Origin: Shinella yambaruensis | Lineage (GTDB): Bacteria > Pseudomonadota > Alphaproteobacteria > Rhizobiales > Rhizobiaceae | NCBI RefSeq assembly: GCF_022899355.1 | Contig: NZ_JALJCK010000013.1 | Coordinates: 62,001 to 126,000, forward strand | Reading direction: 5' to 3' | Length of the DNA stretch: 64,000 nucleotides | Shown: positions 24,234 to 35,469 of the stretch, in pieces | Layout of the letters: each line of letters begins with the position of its first letter | Numbering within the stretch: the first letter of the stretch is position 1 | Program-made: the position numbers and the translations under genes | The notes under the pieces: model-generated | What the model saw: the letters and a program-made list of their open reading frames with translations, nothing else | Database searches by the model: none | Told to the model about the DNA's origin: nothing

Positions 24234-25400
24234 TCAGGCCGGGCCGCGTTCGAGTTCGGCGACGAGGCGCGCCAGCATCGCGTCGCACCGGTCGAGCTGC
24301 TCGATGCTGACGAATTCGTCGGCCTTGTGGCCCTGTTCCATGAAGCCGGGGCCGCAGACCGCGGTGGAAAGGCCGAGGTCCTGATGGAAGAGACCGCCTT
24401 CCGTGCCGAAGGCCACCTTCATGGTCGGCCCATCCGTCGCGAGGATCCGGCGCAGCAGCCGTATCGCGGGCGCGTCGGAGGGCGTGTCGAGGCCGGGATA
24501 GCCGGAAACCGGCTCGATCTCGATGCAGGCCATCGGAAACCGGCCGCGATGCGGCGCGACGATGGCCTCGGCATCGCCGCGGATATCGGCGAGGATGCGC
24601 CCCGGATCGTCGCCGGCAATGTTGCGGATCTCGAAGTCGATCTCGCACAGGCTGGGCACCACGTTGAGCGCGGTGCCGCCGTGCATCAGGCCGGCATGGA
24701 TGGTGGAATAGGGGATGTCGTAGTCCGGGTCGCGCGCGCCCCGCGCAGCCAGCATGTCCTGCCGCGCCTGGAGGGTGGTGATGAAGGCCGCGCCGAGATG
24801 CAGCGCATTCAGCGCCTTGGGTGCAAGTGCCGAATGGCCGGCCTCGCCGCGGCAGCAGGCCTTGAGTGCCAGCTTGCCCTTGTGGCCGCTGGCGATGCGC
24901 AGGCCCGTCGGCTCGCCGACGATGCAGAGCGCCGGCCCTGCCGGCCGCTTCACCAGCGCCTCGATCATGCCGCGCACGCCGAGACAGCCGATCTCCTCGT
25001 CGTAGGAGAGGGCCAGGTGCAGCGGCGCTTTCAGGGGGCGGGTCGCGGCGAAAAGCGCGGCGTGAAGCGCTGCGGCCACGAAACCCTTCATGTCCGCCGT
25101 GCCGCGGCCGTAGAGCCGCCCGTCCCGCTCGGCCAGCCGGAAGGGATCGGTGCTCCAGTCCTGTCCTTCGGCCGGCACGACGTCGGTATGGCCCGACAGC
25201 ACCACGCCGCCAGGCCCCTCGGGACCGATGGTCGCCCAGAGATTGGCCCGGCTGCCATCCGGATGCGAAAAGCGCTCGATCCGCGCGCCGGCCGGGCGCA
25301 GCAGGCCTTCGACATAATCGAGCAGCGCCAGGTTGGATGTCCGCGACACCGTCGGTTCGGCAACGAGGCGGGCGAGGATATCCGGGGTCGCGGGGATCAT
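24234..25400 (-). CDS. M20 family peptidase/deacylase, acetylornithine deacetylase-like (ArgE)
   Basis: A 388-aa di-zinc hydrolase with M20 motifs in order: SGHTDVVPAEG (metal His, catalytic Asp), YGRGTADMKGF (bridging Asp), SYDEEIGCLG (general-base Glu and metal Glu). C-terminal EQGHKADEFVS supplies the last His. ArgE enzymes remove N-acetyl from ornithine. Here the gene lies at the end of a leftward amine-catabolic cluster, 13 bp after DUF1028, so it may instead deacylate an N-acyl amino acid from that pathway. ATG 25400 begins the conserved region; the frame is open to 25475. Confidence 0.82.
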   Translation of the reverse strand: MIPATPDILARLVAEPTVSRTSNLALLDYVEGLLRPAGARIERFSHPDGSRANLWATIGPEGPGGVVLSGHTDVVPAEGQDWSTDPFRLAERDGRLYGRGTADMKGFVAAALHAALFAATRPLKAPLHLALSYDEEIGCLGVRGMIEALVKRPAGPALCIVGEPTGLRIASGHKGKLALKACCRGEAGHSALAPKALNALHLGAAFITTLQARQDMLAARGARDPDYDIPYSTIHAGLMHGGTALNVVPSLCEIDFEIRNIAGDDPGRILADIRGDAEAIVAPHRGRFPMACIEIEPVSGYPGLDTPSDAPAIRLLRRILATDGPTMKVAFGTEGGLFHQDLGLSTAVCGPGFMEQGHKADEFVSIEQLDRCDAMLARLVAELERGPA

Positions 25401-25413
25401 GCGCCTGCCGCCG

Positions 25414-26091
25414 TCACAGGTCGCCCGGCACGCCGTAGCTCGGCGCCTGGGTGGGATCCAGCGCGCGCGTGACATAGGCGTCCATTTCCGTGCGCCAGCG
25501 TTGCCACAGCGCGGCGCATTCCTCGATCGGGTCGCCCTCGGTCCAGTCGACGCGGAGATCCGCGACGTTCCAGGAGACCTTGTCGACCATCACCAGGCCC
25601 ATCGAATGGACCGGCCCTTCCTCGCCGCCGGCGGCGACCGCCGCCCGCATGGCGGCAATCATCCGGTCGCCGAGGTGCCGGCCCTCCGCGGCCTCGAAGG
25701 CCTCGACCATCGCCTGCGGAATGGCCGTCGTTGTCAGCATGTTGCCGGCGGCAACGACGCCGTTGCCCCGGGCGAAGGCATGGGTGCCGAGCGTCTTGGC
25801 GCCGGAAAAGGCGGCCGTACGCCCCTCGGCGTCGACGAGCGCCAGCTGGCGGTATTCGACATGAGGGGCCTCCGCCACCAGCCGCGCAAGCGCGGCTTCC
25901 GCCGAAAGGCCGCCCGCCATCAGGTCGAGCCCTTTCGGGCCGAGGCGCGGGTCGGTGACGTTCTGCGTCGAGACCGCGCCGATGCCCGCGCGCACATGGG
26001 CGCAGCGCGCCGCGACGCTCGGCGAGGAGGAGGAGACGGCAATGCCGAACATGCCGGTATCGGCGCAGCGGCCGGAAACGGAAAAGGTCAT
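25414..26091 (-). CDS. DUF1028 family protein (Ntn-hydrolase-like)
   Basis: A 225-aa protein with the DUF1028 pattern: MTFSVSGRCADTGMFGIAVSSSSPSVAARCAHV, GAVSTQNVTDPRLGPKGLDL, GNGVVAAGNMLTT and VDWTEGDPI. The fold is related to Ntn-hydrolases, and no reaction is established for the family. It sits between RidA and the M20 deacylase in the same direction with 12-bp gaps, so the three are co-transcribed. RidA-DUF1028-M20 trios next to amine transporters suggest C-N bond hydrolysis (inference). Confidence 0.8.
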   Translation of the reverse strand: MTFSVSGRCADTGMFGIAVSSSSPSVAARCAHVRAGIGAVSTQNVTDPRLGPKGLDLMAGGLSAEAALARLVAEAPHVEYRQLALVDAEGRTAAFSGAKTLGTHAFARGNGVVAAGNMLTTTAIPQAMVEAFEAAEGRHLGDRMIAAMRAAVAAGGEEGPVHSMGLVMVDKVSWNVADLRVDWTEGDPIEECAALWQRWRTEMDAYVTRALDPTQAPSYGVPGDL

Positions 26092-26103
26092 GCCGCCCTC
26101 CCG

Positions 26104-26526
26104 TCAGGCCTGGTCGGGAATGACGGCGGTGGCCTCGATCTCGACCAGCCATTCGGGCCGGGCGAGCGCCGTGACGACGAGGCCCGTCGAGACGGGGAAG
26201 ACGCCTTTCAGATATTTGCCCATCTCCCGATAGACGGCCTCGCGGTAGCGGATGTCGATGAGATAGACGACGACGCGGCAGACATGGCTGAGGTCGGAGC
26301 CCGCCTCTTCCAGCAGCATCTTGATGTTTTCCATCGCCTTGCGGGCCTGCGCGGCGGCATCGCCGATGTGCAGGCTTTCGCGCGTGTCTAGGTCCTGCGC
26401 GATCTGTCCGCGCACGAAGACCGTGGTGCCGCGCGCCACAACCGCCTGGCAGAGGTCGTTGTCCAGCTTCTGCTCGGGATAGGTGTCCTTGGTGTTGAAG
26501 GGGCGGATGCGGGTGTGCACGGGCAT
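26104..26526 (-). CDS. RidA family enamine/imine deaminase
   Basis: A 140-aa YjgF/YER057c/RidA protein with GTTVFVRGQIAQDLDT, QARKAMENIKMLLEEAGSDLSHVCRVVVYLIDI and ARPEWLVEIEATAVI, matching the conserved substrate-pocket strands of the family. RidA hydrolyses reactive enamines and imines. In this cluster it could clear imines formed by the flavin-dependent amine dehydrogenase at 30530-32611. ATG 26526 begins the conserved N terminus; the longer open frame is spurious. The gap to the transporter gene potD is 131 bp and may hold its own promoter. Confidence 0.85.
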   Translation of the reverse strand: MPVHTRIRPFNTKDTYPEQKLDNDLCQAVVARGTTVFVRGQIAQDLDTRESLHIGDAAAQARKAMENIKMLLEEAGSDLSHVCRVVVYLIDIRYREAVYREMGKYLKGVFPVSTGLVVTALARPEWLVEIEATAVIPDQA

Positions 26527-26657
26527 GCTTGTCTCCTTGATGGCCGAGCCCTGAACGTATCGGCGCGCCGCGGGCGGGGTAAGTCGTTTTTGCCGATCCC
26601 CCGCTTCGGAAAAAGCTATGCCGGAACCGGCCTGCCGCCCGCGGTGCGTATGCGGGA

Positions 26658-27674
26658 TTATTGCAGCAGCTGGGTCCAGACGCGCGTCACCAGGTCCTGC
26701 GCGGCTGCCGAGCAGGTGCGCGAGAAGGTGATCGGCACGTCCGGATAGAGTTCCGGCGCCTTGTCCTTGGTGTAGACGACCTTCTCCTGCATGACCTTCA
26801 TCGGCGAGGAATGGGCGTAGAAGTTCATCTGCTCGGTGGCGTTCTCCACCGTCGAGATGAACTCGATGAACTTGACCGCATTGTCCCGGTTCGGCGCGCC
26901 CTTCGGGATTGCCAGGCTGTCCATCCAGCCGACAAGGCCTTCCTTGGTCATGGCGAGGCTGACCGGCGAGCCGGCGACGCGGGCCTTGAGGGAATCGCCG
27001 TCCCACCAGAAATGGGCGGAGACCTCGCCCGAGGCGAGCCGGCTTGCGATATTGTCGGAGGAATAGACCGCGACGGAGGGCTTTTGCGCCATCAGGAGAT
27101 CCAGCACCTTCTTCATCTCCGCCTGGTCCTCCGAGCAGAAGGGCACGCCGAGATAGAGCTGGGCGGCGCCGATCACCTCGTCGGGATAGGAGAGCATGGC
27201 GATCTTGCCCTTGAGCTCGCCTTCCGGCTCGAAGAAATACTTGAAGCTATCGGTCGGGCCCTTGTACTCGGCGGTGTTCACGACGAAGCCGGCGGTGCCA
27301 TAGGCGAGCGGGATGGAGAAGTCCTGCGTCTCGTCCCACCACTGATTGCGCCAGCGCTCCTCGATGTTCTGGTAGGCCTGCAGCTTGCTGGCCCCGAAAT
27401 TCTCGATCAGCCCCTCGTCGATCATCACGCGCAGGAAGTGCTGGGAGGGCGTGGCGATGTCGTAGCCGGAGGAGCCGGCCTGCAGCTTGGTCAGGAGGTC
27501 CTCGTTGGAGGTGAAGCTGTCGACATTGACCTTGACGTCGTTCTCCTTGGAGAATTTTTCGATGAGGGCGGGGGATATCGACTCGGCCCAGGCGTAGATG
27601 TTCAGCTCGCCCTCTGCCCGCGCGGCGGTGGCAAGGCATAGGGCAAGGGCGGTCGCTGCGAGGTATCGTTTCAT
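26658..27674 (-). CDS. Spermidine/putrescine-type ABC transporter substrate-binding protein (PotD-like)
   Basis: A 338-aa binding protein with signal peptide MKRYLAATALALCLATAARA. The mature protein has the PotD pattern (ELNIYAWAESISPALIEKF, DVKVNVDSFTSNEDLLTKLQAGSSGYDIATPS). PotD-type proteins bind polyamines through acidic and aromatic residues. Here the adjacent dehydrogenase suggests another primary amine such as histamine. It is the fourth transporter gene of the leftward set potABCD, 18 bp after the PotC-like permease. Confidence 0.85.
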   Translation of the reverse strand: MKRYLAATALALCLATAARAEGELNIYAWAESISPALIEKFSKENDVKVNVDSFTSNEDLLTKLQAGSSGYDIATPSQHFLRVMIDEGLIENFGASKLQAYQNIEERWRNQWWDETQDFSIPLAYGTAGFVVNTAEYKGPTDSFKYFFEPEGELKGKIAMLSYPDEVIGAAQLYLGVPFCSEDQAEMKKVLDLLMAQKPSVAVYSSDNIASRLASGEVSAHFWWDGDSLKARVAGSPVSLAMTKEGLVGWMDSLAIPKGAPNRDNAVKFIEFISTVENATEQMNFYAHSSPMKVMQEKVVYTKDKAPELYPDVPITFSRTCSAAAQDLVTRVWTQLLQ

Positions 27675-27692
27675 TGTCTGTTCCTCTCTTCG

Positions 27693-28502
27693 TTATGGTT
27701 CGGCATTTTCACGGGTGCCGCGCGCCGCAACGAGAAGCGCGACGGTGGCAAGGATGAGCGAGGCCAGGATCAGCAGCGTCGCTATGGCGTTCAGTTCCGG
27801 CGAGGTGCCGGCGCGGATCAGCGAGAAGATGTAGACGGGCAGGGTCGTCGAGCCGCCCGTCGACAGCATGTTGGAGGTGATGAAGTCGTCCATCGAGATC
27901 AGGAAGGCGAGCATCGCGCCGGAGAAGACGCCCGGGAAGATCAGCGGCAGCGTCACCCGGCGGAAGGTCGTCCAGCGGTCGGCATAGAGGTCGGCGCTCG
28001 CCTCCTCCAGGTCGAGCGACATGCCCTGCAGGCGGGCGCGGATCGGCAGGAAGGCGAAGGGCGTGCAGAAGGCGGAATGGGCGATGACCAGCCGCAGCAT
28101 GCCGTTCTGTACGTTGACGAGCGAGAAAAGGATCAGCGTCGCGACGGCCAGCACGATCTCCGGCAGCAGCAGCGGCAGGTTGACGATCGTTTCGCAGAGC
28201 TTGCGGTAGCGCACGTTCTTGCCGCGGATGATGGCGAGCGCGGCGGAAAGCGCGATGAGTGTGGAGACGACCGTCGCGACAGCCGCCACGGTCAGCGAGG
28301 TTTCGAGCGCGTTCATCAGCGCCCTGTTGTTGAGTGCGGAGGCGTACCAGTGCGTCGAAAACCCCGTCCAGACGCCGGCAACCCGGTTGGCGTTGAACGA
28401 ATAGGCGATGATCACCGCCAGCGGCGCATAGAGATAGATGAAGAAGAAGACGGCGAGGGGGCCGAGGCCGGGATAGTGCTTGACGTCGTGGCCCTTCATC
28501 AT
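27693..28502 (-). CDS. ABC transporter permease, PotC-like
   Basis: A 269-aa inner membrane permease with six hydrophobic segments. The EAA loop LEEASADLYADRWTTFRRVTLPLIFPG contacts the ATPase. Its start codon overlaps the stop of the PotB-like permease (4-bp overlap). It forms the transmembrane heterodimer of the polyamine/amine importer. Confidence 0.88.
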   Translation of the reverse strand: MMKGHDVKHYPGLGPLAVFFFIYLYAPLAVIIAYSFNANRVAGVWTGFSTHWYASALNNRALMNALETSLTVAAVATVVSTLIALSAALAIIRGKNVRYRKLCETIVNLPLLLPEIVLAVATLILFSLVNVQNGMLRLVIAHSAFCTPFAFLPIRARLQGMSLDLEEASADLYADRWTTFRRVTLPLIFPGVFSGAMLAFLISMDDFITSNMLSTGGSTTLPVYIFSLIRAGTSPELNAIATLLILASLILATVALLVAARGTRENAEP

Positions 28503-29431
28503 CGGACATCCTCCCGGCGGGCGGCGCGCAGCGCCATGACGAGGAGGAAGACGAGGACGAGCGCCATCAGCGTCATGGCGATCGCCGCGCCGAAGGGCCA
28601 GTTGCGCCCGCCGCCGAACTGCAACTGGATCAGCGTGCCCATCATCATCTGCTTGCCGCCGCCCATCAGCGAGGGTTCCAGCACCGCGCCGAGCGCGGGC
28701 ACGAAGACGAGGATGGCGCCGGCCACGAGGCCGGGGGCCGTCAGCGGCAGGATCACCCGGCGCAGCGTCACCCAGCGGTTGCCGTAGAGATCGTGCGAGG
28801 CCTCGATCAGCGTCCCGTCCAGCTTCTCGATCGAGGCGAAGACCGGCAGGACCATCAGCGGCATGGCGGTATAGACCATGGCCGTCAGCGTCGCGCCGTC
28901 GTTGAACATGAAGCTCATGCCGGCGGGCAGGCCCAAAGTCTCGAGGAAGCGCGGCAGCGTGCCGTCCTTGCCGAGGATAATCATCCAGGCATAGACGCGC
29001 AGGATCATCGAGACCCAGAAGGGCAGCGTCACGAGATAGACGAGCGCCGCCTTGCGGCCCGGCGGCTGGCGGGAGATGAAATAGGCGACCGGAACGGCGA
29101 AGACGAGGCAGATCAGCGTCGTCGCGCCGGCGAGCGCGAAGGTGCGGGCGACGATCAGGAGATATTGCGGGGTGAATTCCAGCTCCCCCGTCCAGCCTTC
29201 GTTGAAGAGGATCTGGCGGTAGCCCGCAAGGTTGAAATCCCAGGTGAAGCCGCCATGCGCGCCGCGCGTGGCGAGCGAGACGGCGGCGATGATGGCGATC
29301 GGCAGGATCAGCGCCAGGCCCATCAGCAGCCAGGACGGCAGGAGGCCCCAGAAGGAGAGGTCGCGCCAGAAACGGACGCGGGGCGAGCGGTCCGTTCCGC
29401 CGGCGGCGGCGTGGAGGGCGCTCTCCGTCAT
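28499..29431 (-). CDS. ABC transporter permease, PotB-like
   Basis: A 310-aa permease with an N-terminal cytoplasmic extension of about 25 residues, then six hydrophobic segments and the EAA loop [27 protein letters not shown]. It overlaps potA-like upstream and potC-like downstream by 4 bp each. It is the second membrane half of the amine importer. Confidence 0.88.
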
Positions 29432-30519
29432 GCGGCCAGCACCCGCGCCGAACCCGCGACGAAGCCTACCGGGACCGTCGCCCCGAGCGGGATCGCGTCG
29501 CCCTCGCGCGAGGCGTTGCGGCGCGAGGCGCGCAGCTCCGTTCCCGCGACATCGAGCGTGTAATGCGTGTAGCCGCCCATGTAGTTCTTGTTGATGATGC
29601 GCCCCTCGAAGACGGTGCCCTGGGCCTGGTCGCCGAGATTGATCTTTTCCGGACGAACCGAAAGGGTCGCACGCCCGCGGCTGGCAGTGCCGGTCGCCGG
29701 CACGGTGAGGGCGACGCCGAACGGCGTGCGCACGGTCGCCTGTCCGGGTGCGGTTTCCACGACCTCCACATCCAGGAAGTTCGTCTCGCCGACGAAATCT
29801 GCGACGAAGCGGTTGACCGGCTCCTCGTAGATTTCCGTCGGCGTGCCGATCTGTTGCACCTCGCCGCCGCCCAGCACGGCGATGCGGTCGGACATGTCGA
29901 GCGCCTCCTCCTGGTCGTGCGTGACGAAGACGAAGGTGATGCCGGTATCGCGCTGCAGGGTGCGCAGCTCGTCCCGCATCGCCTGGCGCAATTTCAGGTC
30001 GAGGGCGGAGAGCGGTTCGTCGAGCAGCAGCACTTCCGGTTCGGGGGCGAGCGCCCGGGCGAGCGCGACGCGCTGGCGCTGGCCGCCCGAAAGCTGGGCG
30101 GGCCTGCGCTTCGCCATCGGCGCCATGTGCACGCGTTCCAGCATCTCGCCGACGCGGGTCCTGATGCGTCCCTTCTCCCAGCCGAGGTTCTCCAGGCCGT
30201 AGGCGACATTCTGCTCCAGCGTCATATGCGGGAAGAGCGCGTAGCTCTGGAACACCGTGTTGACGCGGCGCCGGTGCGGCGGGATCGCGACGACCTCCTG
30301 GCCGGTGAGGAGAATCGAGCCGGTGTCCGGGCTTTCGAAACCGGCGAGCATGCGCAGGAGCGTGGTCTTGCCGCAGCCGGACGGGCCGAGCATCGTGAAG
30401 AACTCGTTGCTGCCGATGTCGAAGCTGACGGACTTCAACGCCTGATAGGTCCCGAAGCTCTTGGAGACCGATTTCACTTCGATGGCCTTTTGGGCTCCAG
30501 TGGAATGGGGCTGGATCAT
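29428..30519 (-). CDS. ABC transporter ATP-binding protein, PotA-like
   Basis: A 363-aa ATPase with Walker [10 protein letters not shown] (about 42-50), Q-loop [10 protein letters not shown], signature LSGGQRQRV, Walker B VLLLDEP and [11 protein letters not shown]-terminal TOBE-type regulatory region follows. It starts at ATG 30519, 10 bp after the dehydrogenase stop; the longer open frame upstream lies within that gene. The tight spacing links amine uptake directly to the TMADH-family amine dehydrogenase. Confidence 0.9.
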
Positions 30520-30529
30520 GCCGTGTTCC

Positions 30530-32611
30530 TCAAGCCGGTTCGAGCTGGGTGACTTCGCGGCGGAAGGGCAGGGCGTCGCCGATATCGGGCGTGTCCAGTT
30601 CTCGCGCATAGCGGTGGCCGGCATAGGTCGCCCAGGCGATCGGCGCGGGGGCGCTCGCATCGCCGATGATCTTGACCGTCCTGATGCCGGCATCGGCCCA
30701 ATCCGCCTGCCGGGCAAGGAGATCGTTGTAGAGCGCGTCTTCGGAAAGGCGCGAGGCGACCATGACGACGGCGTCGCAGCCGATGGTTTTGCGGCGGCCG
30801 GTATAGGTGCAGTTGGTCTCGACCTCGCCGGCGCGGATGGCGGTGACGCCGCGGTTGAGGCGGATATCGACGCCGAGATCGTCGAGCCGCACGTGAATCG
30901 CGCCCTGTTCCAGCGTGTTGCGCGTCCAGTCGGAGACATAGGCCGAGGGCGTCACGAGGATGACTGCCGCACCCGCCTTCGCCATCACCTCGGCCATCAC
31001 GCCGCCCATATAGTAGTGGTCGTCGTCATAGACGACGACCGTCTTGCCGGCGAGGCTTTCGGGATGCGCCTTCGCCATGATGTCGTCGGGCGTCCAGAGG
31101 GGCATTGCCGGATCGATCGGCATGGGCACGACATGCTGTCTGGCAACGCCGTCGCGGCGCCAGTGCGAACCGGTGGCGATGGCGACATGCTCGAAGCCGA
31201 AGCCGAGCACGTCCTCGGCGGTCAGGCGGCTGTCGAAATAGGTCTCGACATTGGTGCGCTGGGAAATCTGGTATTGGCGGTAATCGACGACGCGACCCCA
31301 GGCGGAAAGGCCGGGCAGCAGCCGTTCGCGGGCGACACGGCCGCCGAGCGTGGTGGTGGCTTCGGCGAGCGTCACGTCGTAGCCGCGCAGCGCGAGCGCC
31401 CGGGTGGCTTCGAGGCCGGCGGGGCCTGCGCCGACGACGAGCACGGTCTGGCTCTCGCCCTTCTCGTTCATGCGTTCGGGGTGCCAGCCCTTGCGCCATT
31501 CCTCCATGAAGGTCGGGTTCTGGGTGCAGCGGCTGATCGACATGGTCATGTCGCCGGTGATGCACATGTTGCAGCCGATGCATTCGCGGATATCCTCGAT
31601 GCGGCCTTCCTCGATCTTTTTCGGCAGGAAGGGATCGGCGATGGAGGGGCGGGCGCAGCCGATGAAATCCAGCACGCCCTGGCGGATCATGCGCGCCATC
31701 ACATCCGGCGAGGTGAAGCGGCCGACGCCGACGACGGGTTTCGACGAAAGTTCCCGGATGCCCTTCACCAGGATCTCCTGCGCTCCCTCCTCCTTGAAGC
31801 GGGAGGGGCCGGAACAGTCTTCCCAGGCGCCGTGCGCCAGGTCCCAGAGGTCCGGCAGGTCGGCGTTCATCTCGACGAATTCGCGCACCTCCGCATTGGA
31901 GAAGCCGAGCTCGCCGATGGTCTCGTCCAGGCTGACGCGCATGGTGATCGCCGTGGTGTCGCCGACGGCGTCACGGATGTCGGCCACCACCTCGCGGGCG
32001 AAGCGCGAGCGGTTTTCCAGGCTCCCGCCATAGTCGTCGGTGCGCTGGTTGGTGGCGCGCGACAGGAAGTGCTGGAAGATGCCGAAGCCGTGCGCGCCGT
32101 AAAGACAGATCAGGTCGAAGCCGGCGACCTTCGAGCGTTTCGCGGCGTTGACGAACCAGCGGCGCAGATTCGTTATGTCGGTGCGGTCGAGCGCGCGGGC
32201 CTGCACCGGATCGTTGGTGAAGGTGCGGATCGGCAGGGCGGAGGGGGCGAGCGGCACTTCCTTGGTGTAGAAATTCGGGCCGTTGATGCCGGAATAGGCG
32301 AGCTGGATGCCGGCGAGCGCGCCATGCACCTTCATCGCGTCGGACATGCGGCGAAGGCCGGGAATGTCCTTGTCCTCCCACAGGCGCAGCTCGATGAAGG
32401 GCGTGATCTCCGAGGTGTGGTGCATCTCGGTCTGCTCGGTGAAGATGACGCCCCAGCCGCCCTCCGACTTGATGCCGCGCATGGCCGCGGCCGCCGATGG
32501 GTCGCGATAGCCGCCGCCATTGCAATGCGGCACCTGGTAGAACCGGTTCTTGGCGACATGCGGGCCGATCGCCAGCGGTTCGAACAGGATATCGTATTTG
32601 GCATCGCGCAT
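30530..32611 (-). CDS. TMADH-family amine dehydrogenase, histamine dehydrogenase-like
   Basis: A 693-aa iron-sulfur flavoprotein. Residues 1-340 are an OYE-type TIM barrel with NRFYQVPHC, whose Cys30 corresponds to the covalent 6-S-cysteinyl-FMN Cys30 of trimethylamine dehydrogenase. Catalytic YGAH is at 171-174. The [4Fe-4S] cysteines are Cys344, 347, 350 and 362 (CIGCNMC). C-terminal ADP/NAD-like domains follow from about 385 ([13 protein letters not shown]). The TMADH aromatic bowl Tyr60/Trp264/Trp355 corresponds here to Gln60, Trp263 and Asp354, the set I recall for histamine dehydrogenase (Gln65/Trp267/Asp358). The reaction would be oxidative deamination of histamine to imidazole acetaldehyde and ammonia. 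Other primary amines remain possible. Confidence 0.85.
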
Positions 32612-32910
32612 GGCAGTCCCCGGGGTTTCCGCGGCTATTGGATGGGGCGAAGGGTTTTTGGTAAATGACGCGTTCCGGAAACGGGGATTAGGCTCAGGCT
32701 AATCACGAGCGCGCGTGTTCTTTCGCCATGTTCTCAATTTTTGCGCGAAAGCGCCGCCGCGCCAAGGCGGATGAAAAATCTTCTTTTGTTTTCAATTGCT
32801 TGTGTGAAGCCGATCACTGGCTCCCGATCGCGTATCGGGACGCTTTCGGGAGCCGGTGCCGCTCGTGCTCAAGGCTTGGGCGTGCCCGCGCCGCTGGCGC
32901 GGGCAGATGC
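32612..32910. other. Intergenic region upstream of the amine dehydrogenase
   Basis: This 299-bp gap has no convincing gene. It contains the T-N11-A palindrome at 32686-32704, an AT-rich stretch near 32775-32800, an inverted repeat with GGCTCCCG/CGGGAGCC arms (about 32819-32860), and a GC-rich hairpin GCCCGCGCC/GGCGCGGGC (32884-32904) just after the aldehyde dehydrogenase stop on the minus strand. That hairpin could terminate the LysR-ALDH transcript. Confidence 0.6.
32686..32704. promoter_or_regulatory. LysR-type T-N11-A palindrome before the amine dehydrogenase
   Basis: GATTAGGCTCAGGCTAATC is an imperfect 19-bp palindrome (8 of 9 pairs) containing TTAG-N7-CTAA, the classic T-N11-A LysR box. 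It is centred 84 bp upstream of the dehydrogenase ATG on the minus strand. The LysR gene two genes upstream (34392-35351) is the natural candidate binder. Confidence 0.6.
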
Positions 32911-34395
32911 CTAGTATTTCACCCACACGGTTTTGAGCGCGCAGTACTTGTCGAAGCTGTGAATGGAGAGGTCGCGGCCGAAACCGGACTGCTTCATGCC
33001 GCCGAAGGGCGTCATGGCCGAGAGCGCGTCGACGGTGTTGACCGAGACCGTCCCGGCTTGCAGCCTGTCGGAAACCGAGAGCGCGCGGGAAAGGTCGCGC
33101 GTCCAGACGGAGGCGGCAAGGCCGTATTCGCTGTCATTGGCGATGCGCAGGGCCTCCTCGTCGCCGTCGAAGGGCGTGATGGCGAGCACGGGACCGAAAA
33201 TCTCCTCCCGCGCGATGCGGGCATCCGGCGGCACCTCGTTGAAGATGGTCGGCTGGACGTAGCAGTCCGAGCCGTCGCGCGTCTCGCGTTCGCCGCCATG
33301 GGCAAGGCGGCCTTCCTTGCGGCCGATGTCGATATAGCCTGCCACGCGGTCGGCATGGCTCTTCTCGACCAGCGGTCCCATGCGGGTGGCGGGATCCAGT
33401 GGGTCGCCGAGCGGCCAGGCGGCGGTGGCGGCGATCAGTTTCTGCGTGAACTCTTCCTGCACGGAGCGGTGCACCAGCAGGCGGGAATTGGCGGAGCAGA
33501 CCTCGCCGGAATTGAACAGGATGCCGAAGGCCGCCATCTTGGCCGCCTTGTCGAGATCGGCATCGGCGAAGACGAGGTTCGGCGACTTGCCGCCGGTCTC
33601 CGGCCAGACCTGCTTCATGTTGCTTTCCCCGGCATAGGTCATGAAGAGCTTGCCGACCTTGGTCGAGCCGGTGAAGACCAGCGCGTCGACATCCGCATGC
33701 AGGCCGAGAGCGCGGCCGGCATCCTCGCCGAGGCCGGGCACGACGTTGAGCACGCCGTCCGGCAGGCCGGCCTCGGAGGCAAGCTCGGCCAGCATCAGGG
33801 CGGAGAGCGGCGATTGTTCGGCCGGCTTCAGTACGACGGAGTTTCCGGTGGCGAGCGCCGGGGCGAGCTTCCAGGTCGCCATGTCCAGCGGGAAGTTCCA
33901 CGGCACGACCGCACCGATGACGCCGAGCGGCACGCGGCGGATCAGCGCGAGATCGCCCTGGCCGGTGGGCGCGATCTCGTCATAGAGCTTGTCGATCGCC
34001 TCGGCGTGCCACTGGAAGAAATGCGCCGCGCCGGGCGCGTCGATGGTGGAGCTGTCGCTGATCGGCTTGCCCATGTCGAGCGTGTCGAGCAGAGCGAGTT
34101 CCGGCACGTTCTGTCGGATGAGCGCGGCGAGGCGCAGCAGCACCTCCTTGCGTTCGGCCGGCGATTTGCCGGACCAGCGGCCATCGTTGAAGGCACGGCG
34201 GGCGGCGGCGACGGCGGCATCGATATCCTCGGCCGTGCCGCGGGCGACGGCGGTGAGGACCTGCCCGTTGGCGGGGTTCACGGTTTCGAACCGCCCGCCC
34301 TTGGCCGCCTCGCGAAAGCCGCCGTCGATATAGAGGCGGTTTCGCAATGTGAGGCTAGCGGCGCGCGTGCGCCAGTCGGAAGTCGTGGTGGTCAT
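32911..34395 (-). CDS. NAD(P)-dependent aldehyde dehydrogenase (PuuC-like)
   Basis: A 494-aa ALDH with PWNFPLDMATWKLAPALATGNSVVLKPAE (cofactor and oxyanion Asn), the general-base Glu in PETGGKSPN, the catalytic Cys in FNSGEVCSANSR and C-terminal EEIFGPV and PFGGMKQSGFGRD. It resembles PuuC/gamma-aminobutyraldehyde-type enzymes that oxidise amine-derived aldehydes. It would convert the aldehyde made by the amine dehydrogenase (for histamine, imidazole-4-acetaldehyde to imidazole-4-acetate). ATG 34395 overlaps the LysR stop by 4 bp. Confidence 0.87.
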   Translation of the reverse strand: MTTTTSDWRTRAASLTLRNRLYIDGGFREAAKGGRFETVNPANGQVLTAVARGTAEDIDAAVAAARRAFNDGRWSGKSPAERKEVLLRLAALIRQNVPELALLDTLDMGKPISDSSTIDAPGAAHFFQWHAEAIDKLYDEIAPTGQGDLALIRRVPLGVIGAVVPWNFPLDMATWKLAPALATGNSVVLKPAEQSPLSALMLAELASEAGLPDGVLNVVPGLGEDAGRALGLHADVDALVFTGSTKVGKLFMTYAGESNMKQVWPETGGKSPNLVFADADLDKAAKMAAFGILFNSGEVCSANSRLLVHRSVQEEFTQKLIAATAAWPLGDPLDPATRMGPLVEKSHADRVAGYIDIGRKEGRLAHGGERETRDGSDCYVQPTIFNEVPPDARIAREEIFGPVLAITPFDGDEEALRIANDSEYGLAASVWTRDLSRALSVSDRLQAGTVSVNTVDALSAMTPFGGMKQSGFGRDLSIHSFDKYCALKTVWVKY

Positions 34396-35351
34396 GAAGT
34401 GCCTTTCTCCTCCTGGGTATCGTCGGCGCAAACCGGCAGGTCCATGCCCATGCCGCGGATCCTCTCGCTGCAGAAATCGATGAAACGCCGGACGGTGAGC
34501 GCCGGGCTTGCGCCGCGCATGGCGATGATGCCCATGCGCATGGGGCGCAGGTTGCCGGCAAGCGAGACGAAATTCAACCTGCCGCCATCCAGCGCATAGG
34601 TGGAGACCGGCCGGATGTTGGCGATCGAATAGCCGAAGCGGTTGGCGACCATCGCCCGCATGACGGACATGTCGCGGGTGCGCTCGACGATATGCGGCGC
34701 AAGGCCGGCCTCGCGGAAGAGCGAGAGGAAATAGGCCGATGAGTAGGGCAGGTCGAGCAGGATCATCGGGTGGGCGGCAAGCTCCTCCACCGTCACCTCG
34801 GGGCGCCCGGCCAGCGGATGGTCCTCGTGGAGCACCGCATAGGGCGGCAGCACGGCGAGCTCGTGGAACTCCATGTCGGCCGGGATGTCGAGATCGTAGC
34901 TGAGCGCGATGTCGAAGCGCGCCATGCGCAGGCCTTCCAGGATGCGGGCATGGTCGCGCTCGTACTGGAAGAAATCGACATCGGGATAGGCATCGGAAAA
35001 GGCGCGGCGCAGCGCTGGAATGACGGCCTGCGCGAAGGTGACGAGACAGGCGACATGCAGCGGTCCGCGCACCTGTCCGGTCAGTTCGTTGGACAGCGCG
35101 TTGAACTTGGCGGCCTCGCCGAGGACATGCCGGGCCTGCTCGACGAAGCTCCGGCCGGCCTGCGTCAGCGACAGCCCGTGCGCATGGCGGCGCACGAAGA
35201 GCGTGATGCCGAATTCCCGCTCGAGCTGCGATATCGCTGCGGAAACCGAGGGCGCGGAGACGTTCACCCGTTCCGCGGCTTCGGTGACGGAGCCGTACTC
35301 GCCGACGGCGACGAGATATTCCAGCTGGCGGAGGGTGAAGCGCAAGACCAT
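34392..35351 (-). CDS. LysR family regulator of the amine cluster
   Basis: A 319-aa LysR protein with HTH FTLRQLEYLVAVGEYGSVTEAAERVNVSAPSVSAAISQLEREFG and a C-terminal sensor domain. It is translationally coupled to the aldehyde dehydrogenase gene downstream and transcribed in the same direction as the amine cluster. It probably activates the cluster in response to the amine or its aldehyde, using the palindrome at 32686-32704 (inference). Confidence 0.88.
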   Translation of the reverse strand: MVLRFTLRQLEYLVAVGEYGSVTEAAERVNVSAPSVSAAISQLEREFGITLFVRRHAHGLSLTQAGRSFVEQARHVLGEAAKFNALSNELTGQVRGPLHVACLVTFAQAVIPALRRAFSDAYPDVDFFQYERDHARILEGLRMARFDIALSYDLDIPADMEFHELAVLPPYAVLHEDHPLAGRPEVTVEELAAHPMILLDLPYSSAYFLSLFREAGLAPHIVERTRDMSVMRAMVANRFGYSIANIRPVSTYALDGGRLNFVSLAGNLRPMRMGIIAMRGASPALTVRRFIDFCSERIRGMGMDLPVCADDTQEEKGTS

Positions 35352-35469
35352 GTCCGGTGTCCTTGTTGTCTGTCAATTAAGGAGCAGATCGGCGCGCAGG
35401 GAAAGGGTTGTTTCGGTGCGAGGCTGGGGATAGGCCGGGGCGGAGCGGCTAAATCGCGGCCCGCCCCGG

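Follow-up and report, generated by a model that had tools for sequence, protein, structure and literature searches.

The window analysed here is a stretch of 64,000 nucleotides from Shinella yambaruensis (contig C4:62001-126000 of a 6.87-Mb genome), and the system in question is a run of ten genes at positions 24234-35351, which had been described from the letters alone as a self-contained cluster for the uptake and breakdown of histamine or a similar primary amine. All ten genes named in that original prediction were present on the minus strand, and Pfam and NCBIfam placed them in the families claimed: a LysR-type regulator, an aldehyde dehydrogenase, a trimethylamine dehydrogenase (TMADH)-family amine dehydrogenase, the four components of a PotABCD-type ATP-binding cassette (ABC) importer, a RidA-like protein, a DUF1028 protein and an M20 hydrolase (Table 1). 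The tight packing also held, with seven of the nine gaps below 20 bp; from LysR through M20 the intergenic distances are -1, 299, 10, -4, -4, 18, 131, 12 and 13 bp, and the 299-bp gap ahead of the dehydrogenase contains a predicted operator. For the M20 gene, an in-frame ATG at 25400 fits better as the start than the longer open reading frame (ORF) to 25475, which would overlap DUF1028. Judged from its sequence, the cluster is very probably a histamine-to-aspartate catabolic regulon from which one enzyme gene has been displaced. The family memberships, the orthology of the dehydrogenase, the linkage in relatives and the operator copies are supported by the sequence; we infer the substrates other than that of the dehydrogenase ortholog, the assignment of enzymes to ring-opening steps and the binding of the regulator.

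Table 1. Features of the cluster and its surroundings. Positions are those of the window, except in the last line, where they are those of the named loci of other genomes.
Feature	Position	Strand	Evidence or remark
LysR-type regulator, probable activator of the regulon	34392-35351	-	Pfam HTH_1 and LysR_substrate
Aldehyde dehydrogenase, HinD-type role	32911-34392	-	Pfam Aldedh, E 8.1e-170; substrate inferred from context
Predicted LysR operator TTAG-N7-CTAA-N19-TCAT	32665-32702	-	Alignment of upstream regions
Histamine dehydrogenase, TMADH family (FMN, 4Fe-4S)	30530-32611	-	Identity to PDB 6DE6
PotA-type ABC importer ATPase	29428-30519	-	TIGR01187 potA, 367.7 bits (cut-off 355.6)
PotB-type permease	28499-29431	-	Pfam BPD_transp_1; NCBIfam PotB under cut-off
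PotC-type permease	27693-28502	-	Pfam BPD_transp_1; NCBIfam PotC under cut-off
PotD-like periplasmic binding protein, probable histamine receptor of the importer	26658-27674	-	E 3.6e-44 to PotD
RidA-fold protein, HinL-type, without the canonical catalytic Arg	26104-26526	-	Pfam Ribonuc_L-PSP
DUF1028 protein, predicted HinH-type amidohydrolase	25414-26091	-	Pfam, E 3e-65
M20 metallo-hydrolase, HinG-type, probably N-formylaspartate deformylase	24234-25400	-	Pfam Peptidase_M20
In-window part of the ~38.7-kb segment parting LysR from the monooxygenase gene	35431-64000	.	blastn against eight sister stretches
Fused flavin reductase-LysR domain	L240:11366-12535; L238:8922-10106; L040:3352 onward		Beside HpaB in dehydrogenase clusters

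The strongest argument for histamine is the match of the dehydrogenase to a characterised enzyme. The protein was identical to the Rhizobium histamine dehydrogenase (EC 1.4.9.1) of PDB entry 6DE6 at 649 of 693 positions (93.7%), and the two agreed at each of 13 residues drawn from the lists for the active site and for docking in PMC10180351. The reference protein (UniProt Q60I59, from Rhizobium sp. 4-9; PMC10180351) differs in having been studied as an assay enzyme, and neither its operon nor the genes behind it were found described in the available portions of the literature. Comparisons with relatives were based on the best 80 of 581 confirmed related loci, some of them short contigs, and the gene counts come from ORF clustering across them, which misses some split or shadowed ORFs. 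When 83 of the 85 dehydrogenase rows from these loci were aligned (own row included, over-long ORFs left out), the 13 listed positions were kept in at least 80 of 83 rows, except for Asp265 (71 of 83), and Cys30, which we take to be the flavin-attachment cysteine, was present in all of them; Oxidored_FMN and Pyr_redox_2 domains were recognised by Pfam. The nearest named relatives are Shinella, with dehydrogenases at 96-98% identity in four loci (L002, L003, L004 and L007).

Relatives of the nicotine pathway (6-hydroxypseudooxynicotine oxidase type) reach 46-48% identity to histamine dehydrogenases (available part of PMC5500553), and paralogs at about 51% occur in the same genus. Nevertheless, it is exceedingly improbable that the dehydrogenase is such a relative or another TMADH paralog, given its 94% identity to 6DE6 and the agreement at all 13 residues: the paralog rows L055 and L043, at 48-50% identity, differ at seven and eight of these positions, respectively, and the 57% rows L009 and L010 at two. 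Together with hin-type partner genes, the identity to a biochemically characterised enzyme argues for histamine, the substrate originally proposed, and this reading is very likely right.

The rest of the gene set was kept in relatives, as ORF clustering found LysR in 67 of the 80 loci, DUF1028 in 63, M20 in 56, RidA in 54, the importer ATPase in 51 and the aldehyde dehydrogenase in 48, with a flavin monooxygenase clustered in 68. For the aldehyde dehydrogenase of the window the top NCBIfam model was PuuC, under its cut-off. The RidA-like protein has Ser113 at the position of the canonical Arg, presumably catalytic in canonical RidA; among 53 of 55 rows aligned, Ser was found in 47 and Cys in six, and the PAR motif of canonical RidA was not encountered. 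Because this Arg is replaced by Ser or Cys, the protein is better read, from its sequence, as a dedicated pathway enzyme, HinL. The imine clearance first suggested for it is weakened as far as a general scavenger role is concerned, and the candidate of a general imine scavenger was rejected for lack of the catalytic Arg. In the M20 alignment (53 of 58 rows; for both families the own row was included and over-long ORFs left out), H71, D73, D103, E135, E136, E163 and H358, to which we assign metal-site roles, were conserved in at least 95% of rows.

The DUF1028 protein was aligned with those of 37 of the 59 listed loci, and four of the 63 DUF1028 ORFs, which have no MTFS start, were outside this set. 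Met1-Thr2-Phe3-Ser4 was invariant in all 38 proteins, as would be expected of an N-terminal-nucleophile hydrolase, the putative fold of this family in Pfam. The AlphaFold2 model had a mean pLDDT (predicted local distance difference test) of 89.5, the sole convincing PDB relative by sequence was 2IMH, a hypothetical protein, and the name DUF1028 was not met in the literature text searched.

The order RidA-DUF1028-M20 in the window would correspond to hinL-hinH-hinG, and that of the contiguous monooxygenase-RidA-DUF1028-M20 genes found in Burkholderia and Mycolicibacterium plasmids to hinF-hinL-hinH-hinG. In Pseudomonas aeruginosa, PA5393-PA5390 (hinF-hinL-hinH-hinG) are up 7.9-11.1 log2 on histamine, and hinG is called a 'probable peptidic bond hydrolase' (PMC8231116, part available). 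HinF is described as a flavin adenine dinucleotide (FAD)-monooxygenase (EC 1.14.13.5), HinL as an enamine deaminase, HinH as an amidase, HinG as an amidase of EC 3.5.1.8 and HinI as aspartate ammonia-lyase (PMC6467879, part available). By analogy, this order and these names support the earlier guess of a late N-formyl- or N-acylaspartate step for the DUF1028/M20 pair.

The cluster would thus resemble the Hin pathway of Pseudomonas putida U and P. aeruginosa (HinABCDFLHGIJK) in having an aldehyde dehydrogenase, an FAD-monooxygenase, an enamine deaminase, two amidases and a LysR protein, and in its predicted route from histamine through imidazoleacetate to aspartate. In contrast to that pathway, a flavin dehydrogenase takes the place of the HinC aminotransferase and an ABC importer that of the HinA permease, neither HinC nor HinA being found in the cluster (the rest of the genome was not searched for them); moreover, the dehydrogenase, the aldehyde dehydrogenase and the late genes form one cluster, with HinF displaced. 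The putative pathway of Brevibacterium, whose growth on histamine has been shown, shares homologs of HinD, HinF, HinG, HinH, HinI and HinL, whereas its first step is a proposed histamine oxidase or a HinC homolog (according to the available part of PMC6467879). An aspartase/fumarase-family gene was linked in five of the 80 loci, and homologs of this family at 55%, 44% and 39% identity lie elsewhere in the own genome. The chemistry is known and the combination is new: entry through a histamine dehydrogenase and uptake by an ABC importer are joined to the Hin route, with HinF displaced.

In four other Shinella loci the monooxygenase gene is placed directly upstream of LysR. Its counterpart in this genome, P0001 (C4:136144-137367, minus strand), encodes a protein 83% identical to that of L003 and lies on the same contig, 10 kb beyond the window end and thereby 38.8 kb away from LysR on its upstream side; it is called HinF-type from linkage and operator, not from an alignment to HinF. 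Therefore, the cluster is not self-contained as had been claimed, and the accompanying statement that no imidazoleacetate monooxygenase is present, true of the window, appears false for the genome. An organism without the monooxygenase, as a reason for its absence from the window, was likewise rejected, the gene being found beyond it.

Homology to eight sister stretches (blastn) ended at window positions 35389-35430 and resumed at about 74150 (numbering continued along the contig), and in the sisters these two ends adjoin. An identical split was found in the closed plasmid pbSHIWSC3 of Shinella sp. WSC3-e, with the monooxygenase at 276536 and, at 325822, a DUF1028 gene 98.7% identical to that of the window; therefore, the split is no assembly error of this genome. 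Inside the splitting segment pbSHIWSC3 carries iron-type ABC and TonB uptake genes, an adenosylcobinamide amidohydrolase, nrdHIEF and metE. The segment (continuing from the window along contig C4 to ~136150; annotated in L123) looks like a metal/B12-shortage gene set. A mobile element was rejected as the cause of the split, since no integrase or transposase was named in the matching pbSHIWSC3 stretch, for which the gene table is incomplete, the own insert not being annotated gene by gene. A pathway gene has moved 39 kb off with its predicted operator retained.

This operator was the one block common to the dehydrogenase and monooxygenase upstream regions when these were aligned. Its near edge lies 54 bp ahead of the dehydrogenase start, and it includes TAG-N7-CTA, which we take to be a LysR-type T-N11-A box. 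The full pattern matched the genome twice, once ahead of the dehydrogenase and once ahead of the displaced monooxygenase, and the backwards control gave no match; the core at 32688-32702 was the sole core match in the window (shuffle mean 0.02). In the 80 loci, 130 core copies were counted, when 20 base-shuffled sets averaged 8.6 and had at most 15, and 126 of the 130 lay within -150 to +500 of the start of a cluster gene: dehydrogenase 42, monooxygenase 34, importer ATPase 28, HpaB (an oxygenase considered below) 8, LysR 7, RidA 3, Rieske 2 and M20 2. The core stood before 32 of 53 importer ATPases and eight of 13 HpaB genes, and before none of the 49 aldehyde dehydrogenase, 63 DUF1028 or 32 other-type binding-protein genes in these loci.

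In the mechanism that we propose, the LysR protein would bind the predicted operator and, through this T-N11-A type site, activate two units, one being dehydrogenase-importer-RidA-DUF1028-M20 and the other the displaced monooxygenase. Histamine would be taken up by the PotABCD-type importer and converted by the flavin/iron-sulphur histamine dehydrogenase to imidazoleacetaldehyde and NH3, the aldehyde dehydrogenase would yield imidazoleacetate, and the HinF-type single-component flavin monooxygenase would act on the ring of the latter to give imidazoloneacetate. The RidA-like, DUF1028 and M20 proteins (HinL, HinH and HinG types) would then open the ring and remove the formimino or formyl group, leaving aspartate.

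The true substrate could instead be a polyamine or agmatine taken up by an ordinary polyamine importer, with histamine oxidation as a side activity. The importer is of the PotABCD family, with all four component types and a PotA over the NCBIfam cut-off, and the characterised dehydrogenase ortholog accepts two further amines, oxidising agmatine at 10% and 1,3-diaminopropane at 13% of its rate with histamine (available part of PMC10180351). PotB, PotC and PotD of the window, in contrast, fall under the equivalog cut-offs. A different binding protein, 32-38% identical to that of the window, is held by 33 of the 80 loci, with neighbours of the histone-deacetylase family in eight loci and of the nitrilase family in seven, enzymes of kinds known from polyamine breakdown. 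However, the monooxygenase, RidA, DUF1028 and M20 are conserved partners for which we know of no place in putrescine or agmatine breakdown, and the operator precedes not only the dehydrogenase but also the monooxygenase. A polyamine substrate is therefore considered improbable, and an agmatine/putrescine system was rejected as its partner genes do not fit. As a separate observation, a GMC oxidoreductase and an Amidohydro_3 amidohydrolase, which are not among the genes of the window cluster, were often found near the importer genes of relatives (12 loci each, e.g. L020:15937-19273).

The linkage of the monooxygenase was followed in two samples. Among 299 Pseudomonadota genomes (phylum sample), a match at E <= 1e-60 was found in 42, with 30 loci listed. 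Nineteen of the listed loci had at least 61% identity, and 17 of these adjoin RidA and DUF1028, the two exceptions being the own genome and a locus with a histamine dehydrogenase adjacent; none of the 11 listed at 59% or less was beside RidA and DUF1028. The core operator was present in seven of the 19 close loci, all but one from the own family. Among 385 alphaproteobacterial genomes (class sample), six carry a dehydrogenase at 70% identity or above, and the monooxygenase was found in five; in the remaining one, G658, the cluster contains HpaB, and the genome gave no monooxygenase match at E <= 1e-140. For dehydrogenases at 58-62%, three of four genomes have it. Finally, 12 of the 80 loci are without the monooxygenase, and after exclusion of L038 and L049, whose contigs end near the dehydrogenase, six of the ten genomes tested carried one elsewhere.

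These linkages bear on the idea that RidA-DUF1028-M20 is a general N-acyl/imine clean-up module hitch-hiking by the dehydrogenase, while the monooxygenase acts elsewhere. The trio does occur without histamine dehydrogenase in plasmids of Acetobacter, Klebsiella, Paracoccus, Aminobacter, Pantoea, Burkholderia and Mycolicibacterium, and nine of 12 further class-level monooxygenase loci are without it. Yet a ring oxygenase of the flavin monooxygenase or HpaB type lies near the trio in six of the seven named plasmid stretches, five of which were found by an oxygenase query; of the two found by a DUF1028 query, that of Klebsiella has an oxygenase and that of Pantoea shows none in 14.7 kb. Neighbouring aspartate ammonia-lyase and HutD genes point to an imidazole-to-aspartate route, and the RidA-like protein is without the Arg of general imine deaminases. 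A clean-up module thus has a slim chance of being the right explanation.

Several results weigh against a histamine-to-aspartate regulon. The 12 further class-sample loci listed (59-74% identity) have RidA and DUF1028 within 1.5 kb in only three cases, and the stretches of 8-20 kb around the other nine monooxygenases show neither the RidA-DUF1028-M20 trio nor the dehydrogenase; at least five of those nine genomes (G567, G648, G741, G811 and G813) have an HpaB gene with RidA elsewhere, four of them also with DUF1028. Likewise, just three of the six elsewhere-encoded monooxygenases mentioned above have the RidA and DUF1028 link. The monooxygenase gene thus frequently stands by itself, as it now does in this genome, and a constant tie to RidA-DUF1028 was rejected, with 17 of 19 loci in the phylum sample but three of 12 in the class sample. 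The co-occurrence of dehydrogenase and monooxygenase in the class sample (monooxygenase in eight of ten genomes with the dehydrogenase versus seven of 375 without) speaks for the regulon, but in counts uncorrected for kinship. As to regulation, the core alone is not enriched genome-wide, with five sites versus 24 for the reversed control, and is special by its places, not its number; in the related loci no more than 36 of the 67 monooxygenases and 43 of the 81 dehydrogenases have it ahead of them. In addition, eight of these loci and the own genome, in which the motif was then found, had served to derive it, and related loci are no independent trials. Among the proteins, the PotD-like one keeps only seven (W34, E36, S83, E171, W229, W255 and D257) of 12 PotD ligand positions, the other five being changed relative to the polyamine importer. 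The M20 protein is placed by NCBIfam over the acetylornithine deacetylase cut-off, and HinH was provisionally equated with DUF1028 and HinG with M20 by gene order and product names, for HinH also by elimination.

In four genomes with the dehydrogenase no monooxygenase was found; three of them have an HpaB-family oxygenase and one has neither, and HpaB is also present in one of the six genomes with an elsewhere-encoded monooxygenase. Several of these genomes are metagenome assemblies, in which absence may be incompleteness. Three dehydrogenase genomes in which the monooxygenase was not found (L021/L240, L040 and L238) have, right behind HpaB, a flavin reductase that carries a fused LysR substrate-binding domain but no helix-turn-helix, as assigned by Pfam in L238 and L240 and by sequence match in L040. 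The fusion also adjoins HpaB in a fourth genome (L187), for which no dehydrogenase was found at the search cut-off, and six plasmid records match the fused reductase across at least 80% of its length. A literature search for a LysR-domain flavin reductase found no paper naming such a domain; in the HpaC of Acinetobacter, a MarR domain mediates a stimulation of flavin reduction by the substrate that reaches 30-fold or more (PMC10816480, part available). The core operator was found before HpaB in L016, L021/L240 and L040, and in L238 between the dehydrogenase end and the M20 start, not before HpaB.

In the class sample, 28 of 30 HpaB loci had a RidA match within 1.5 kb and 20 a DUF1028 match, whereas the core operator was found in none of the 30; HpaB was present in six of the ten dehydrogenase genomes versus 20 of the 375 others. 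On plasmids, Paracoccus pTAV3 carries RidA, DUF1028 and M20 behind HpaB, at 73-77% identity to those of the window, and Aminobacter pUSP1 has flavin reductase, HpaB, RidA, DUF1028 and ArgE together with aspartate ammonia-lyase and HutD. In a DUF1028 tree of 110 of 118 rows (near-copies removed, after exclusion of short or stop-containing hits and of listed duplicate loci), built by a quick search with SH-aLRT (Shimodaira-Hasegawa-like approximate likelihood-ratio test) values only, the oxygenase label needs at least eight changes, three of them forced by well-supported branches. Against a replacement of one oxygenase by the other, five of the six class-sample dehydrogenase genomes with HpaB have HinF as well. 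Similarly, HpaB occurs in 13 of the 80 loci, and for 11 of these 13 a monooxygenase is found in the locus (ten) or elsewhere in the genome (one); in these 11 HpaB may serve another role.

The evidence for an alternative oxygenase is therefore suggestive. We put forward only tentatively, as a joint proposal that is possible rather than probable, that the HinF type and the two-component HpaB type, unrelated flavin oxygenases, interchange before RidA-DUF1028-M20 for oxygenation of the imidazoleacetate ring, often under a common operator inside dehydrogenase clusters; that the LysR-domain reductase of HpaB would probably be gated by a pathway substrate, by analogy with the MarR-fused reductase of the Acinetobacter 4-hydroxyphenylacetate hydroxylase; and that DUF1028 would be an amidohydrolase acting on the oxygenated ring in all versions.

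If the histamine-to-aspartate reading holds, an assay enzyme is placed in a full catabolic route with its regulon, which is open to testing and occurs in many Rhodobacteraceae and in some Rhizobiaceae. DUF1028 gains a concrete predicted role, a reason is suggested why an Arg-less RidA-fold protein and an 'acetylornithine deacetylase' occur together, and an alternative oxygenase with a ligand-gated reductase is predicted.

Related gene sets, perhaps with other entry points, were also observed on plasmids. The conjugative Klebsiella pneumoniae plasmid pKP007 (L124:7562-15142 and L244:411-5799) carries RidA-DUF1028-ArgE, an ABC importer, an alpha-hydroxy acid oxidase and, at 59% identity, a HinF-like monooxygenase, and our guess is that its entry is from imidazolelactate; DUF1028 matched 277 plasmid records, 105 of them from Klebsiella. 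On an Acetobacter oryzoeni plasmid (L122:7265-15569), DUF1028, a HinF-like monooxygenase, an aldehyde dehydrogenase, RidA, a cytosine permease, a GMC oxidoreductase and ArgE occur together, where entry might be guessed to be from imidazole-ethanol rather than histamine. Among the 80 loci, the alpha subunit of a Rieske oxygenase was found near RidA, the monooxygenase or HpaB in nine (L016, L021, L024, L029, L030, L031, L044, L075 and L078), with demethylation of methylated imidazoleacetate as a guess at its role. A pyridoxal-dependent decarboxylase, which could make histamine from histidine, lies just downstream of the dehydrogenase in five (L027, L029, L042, L058 and L062).

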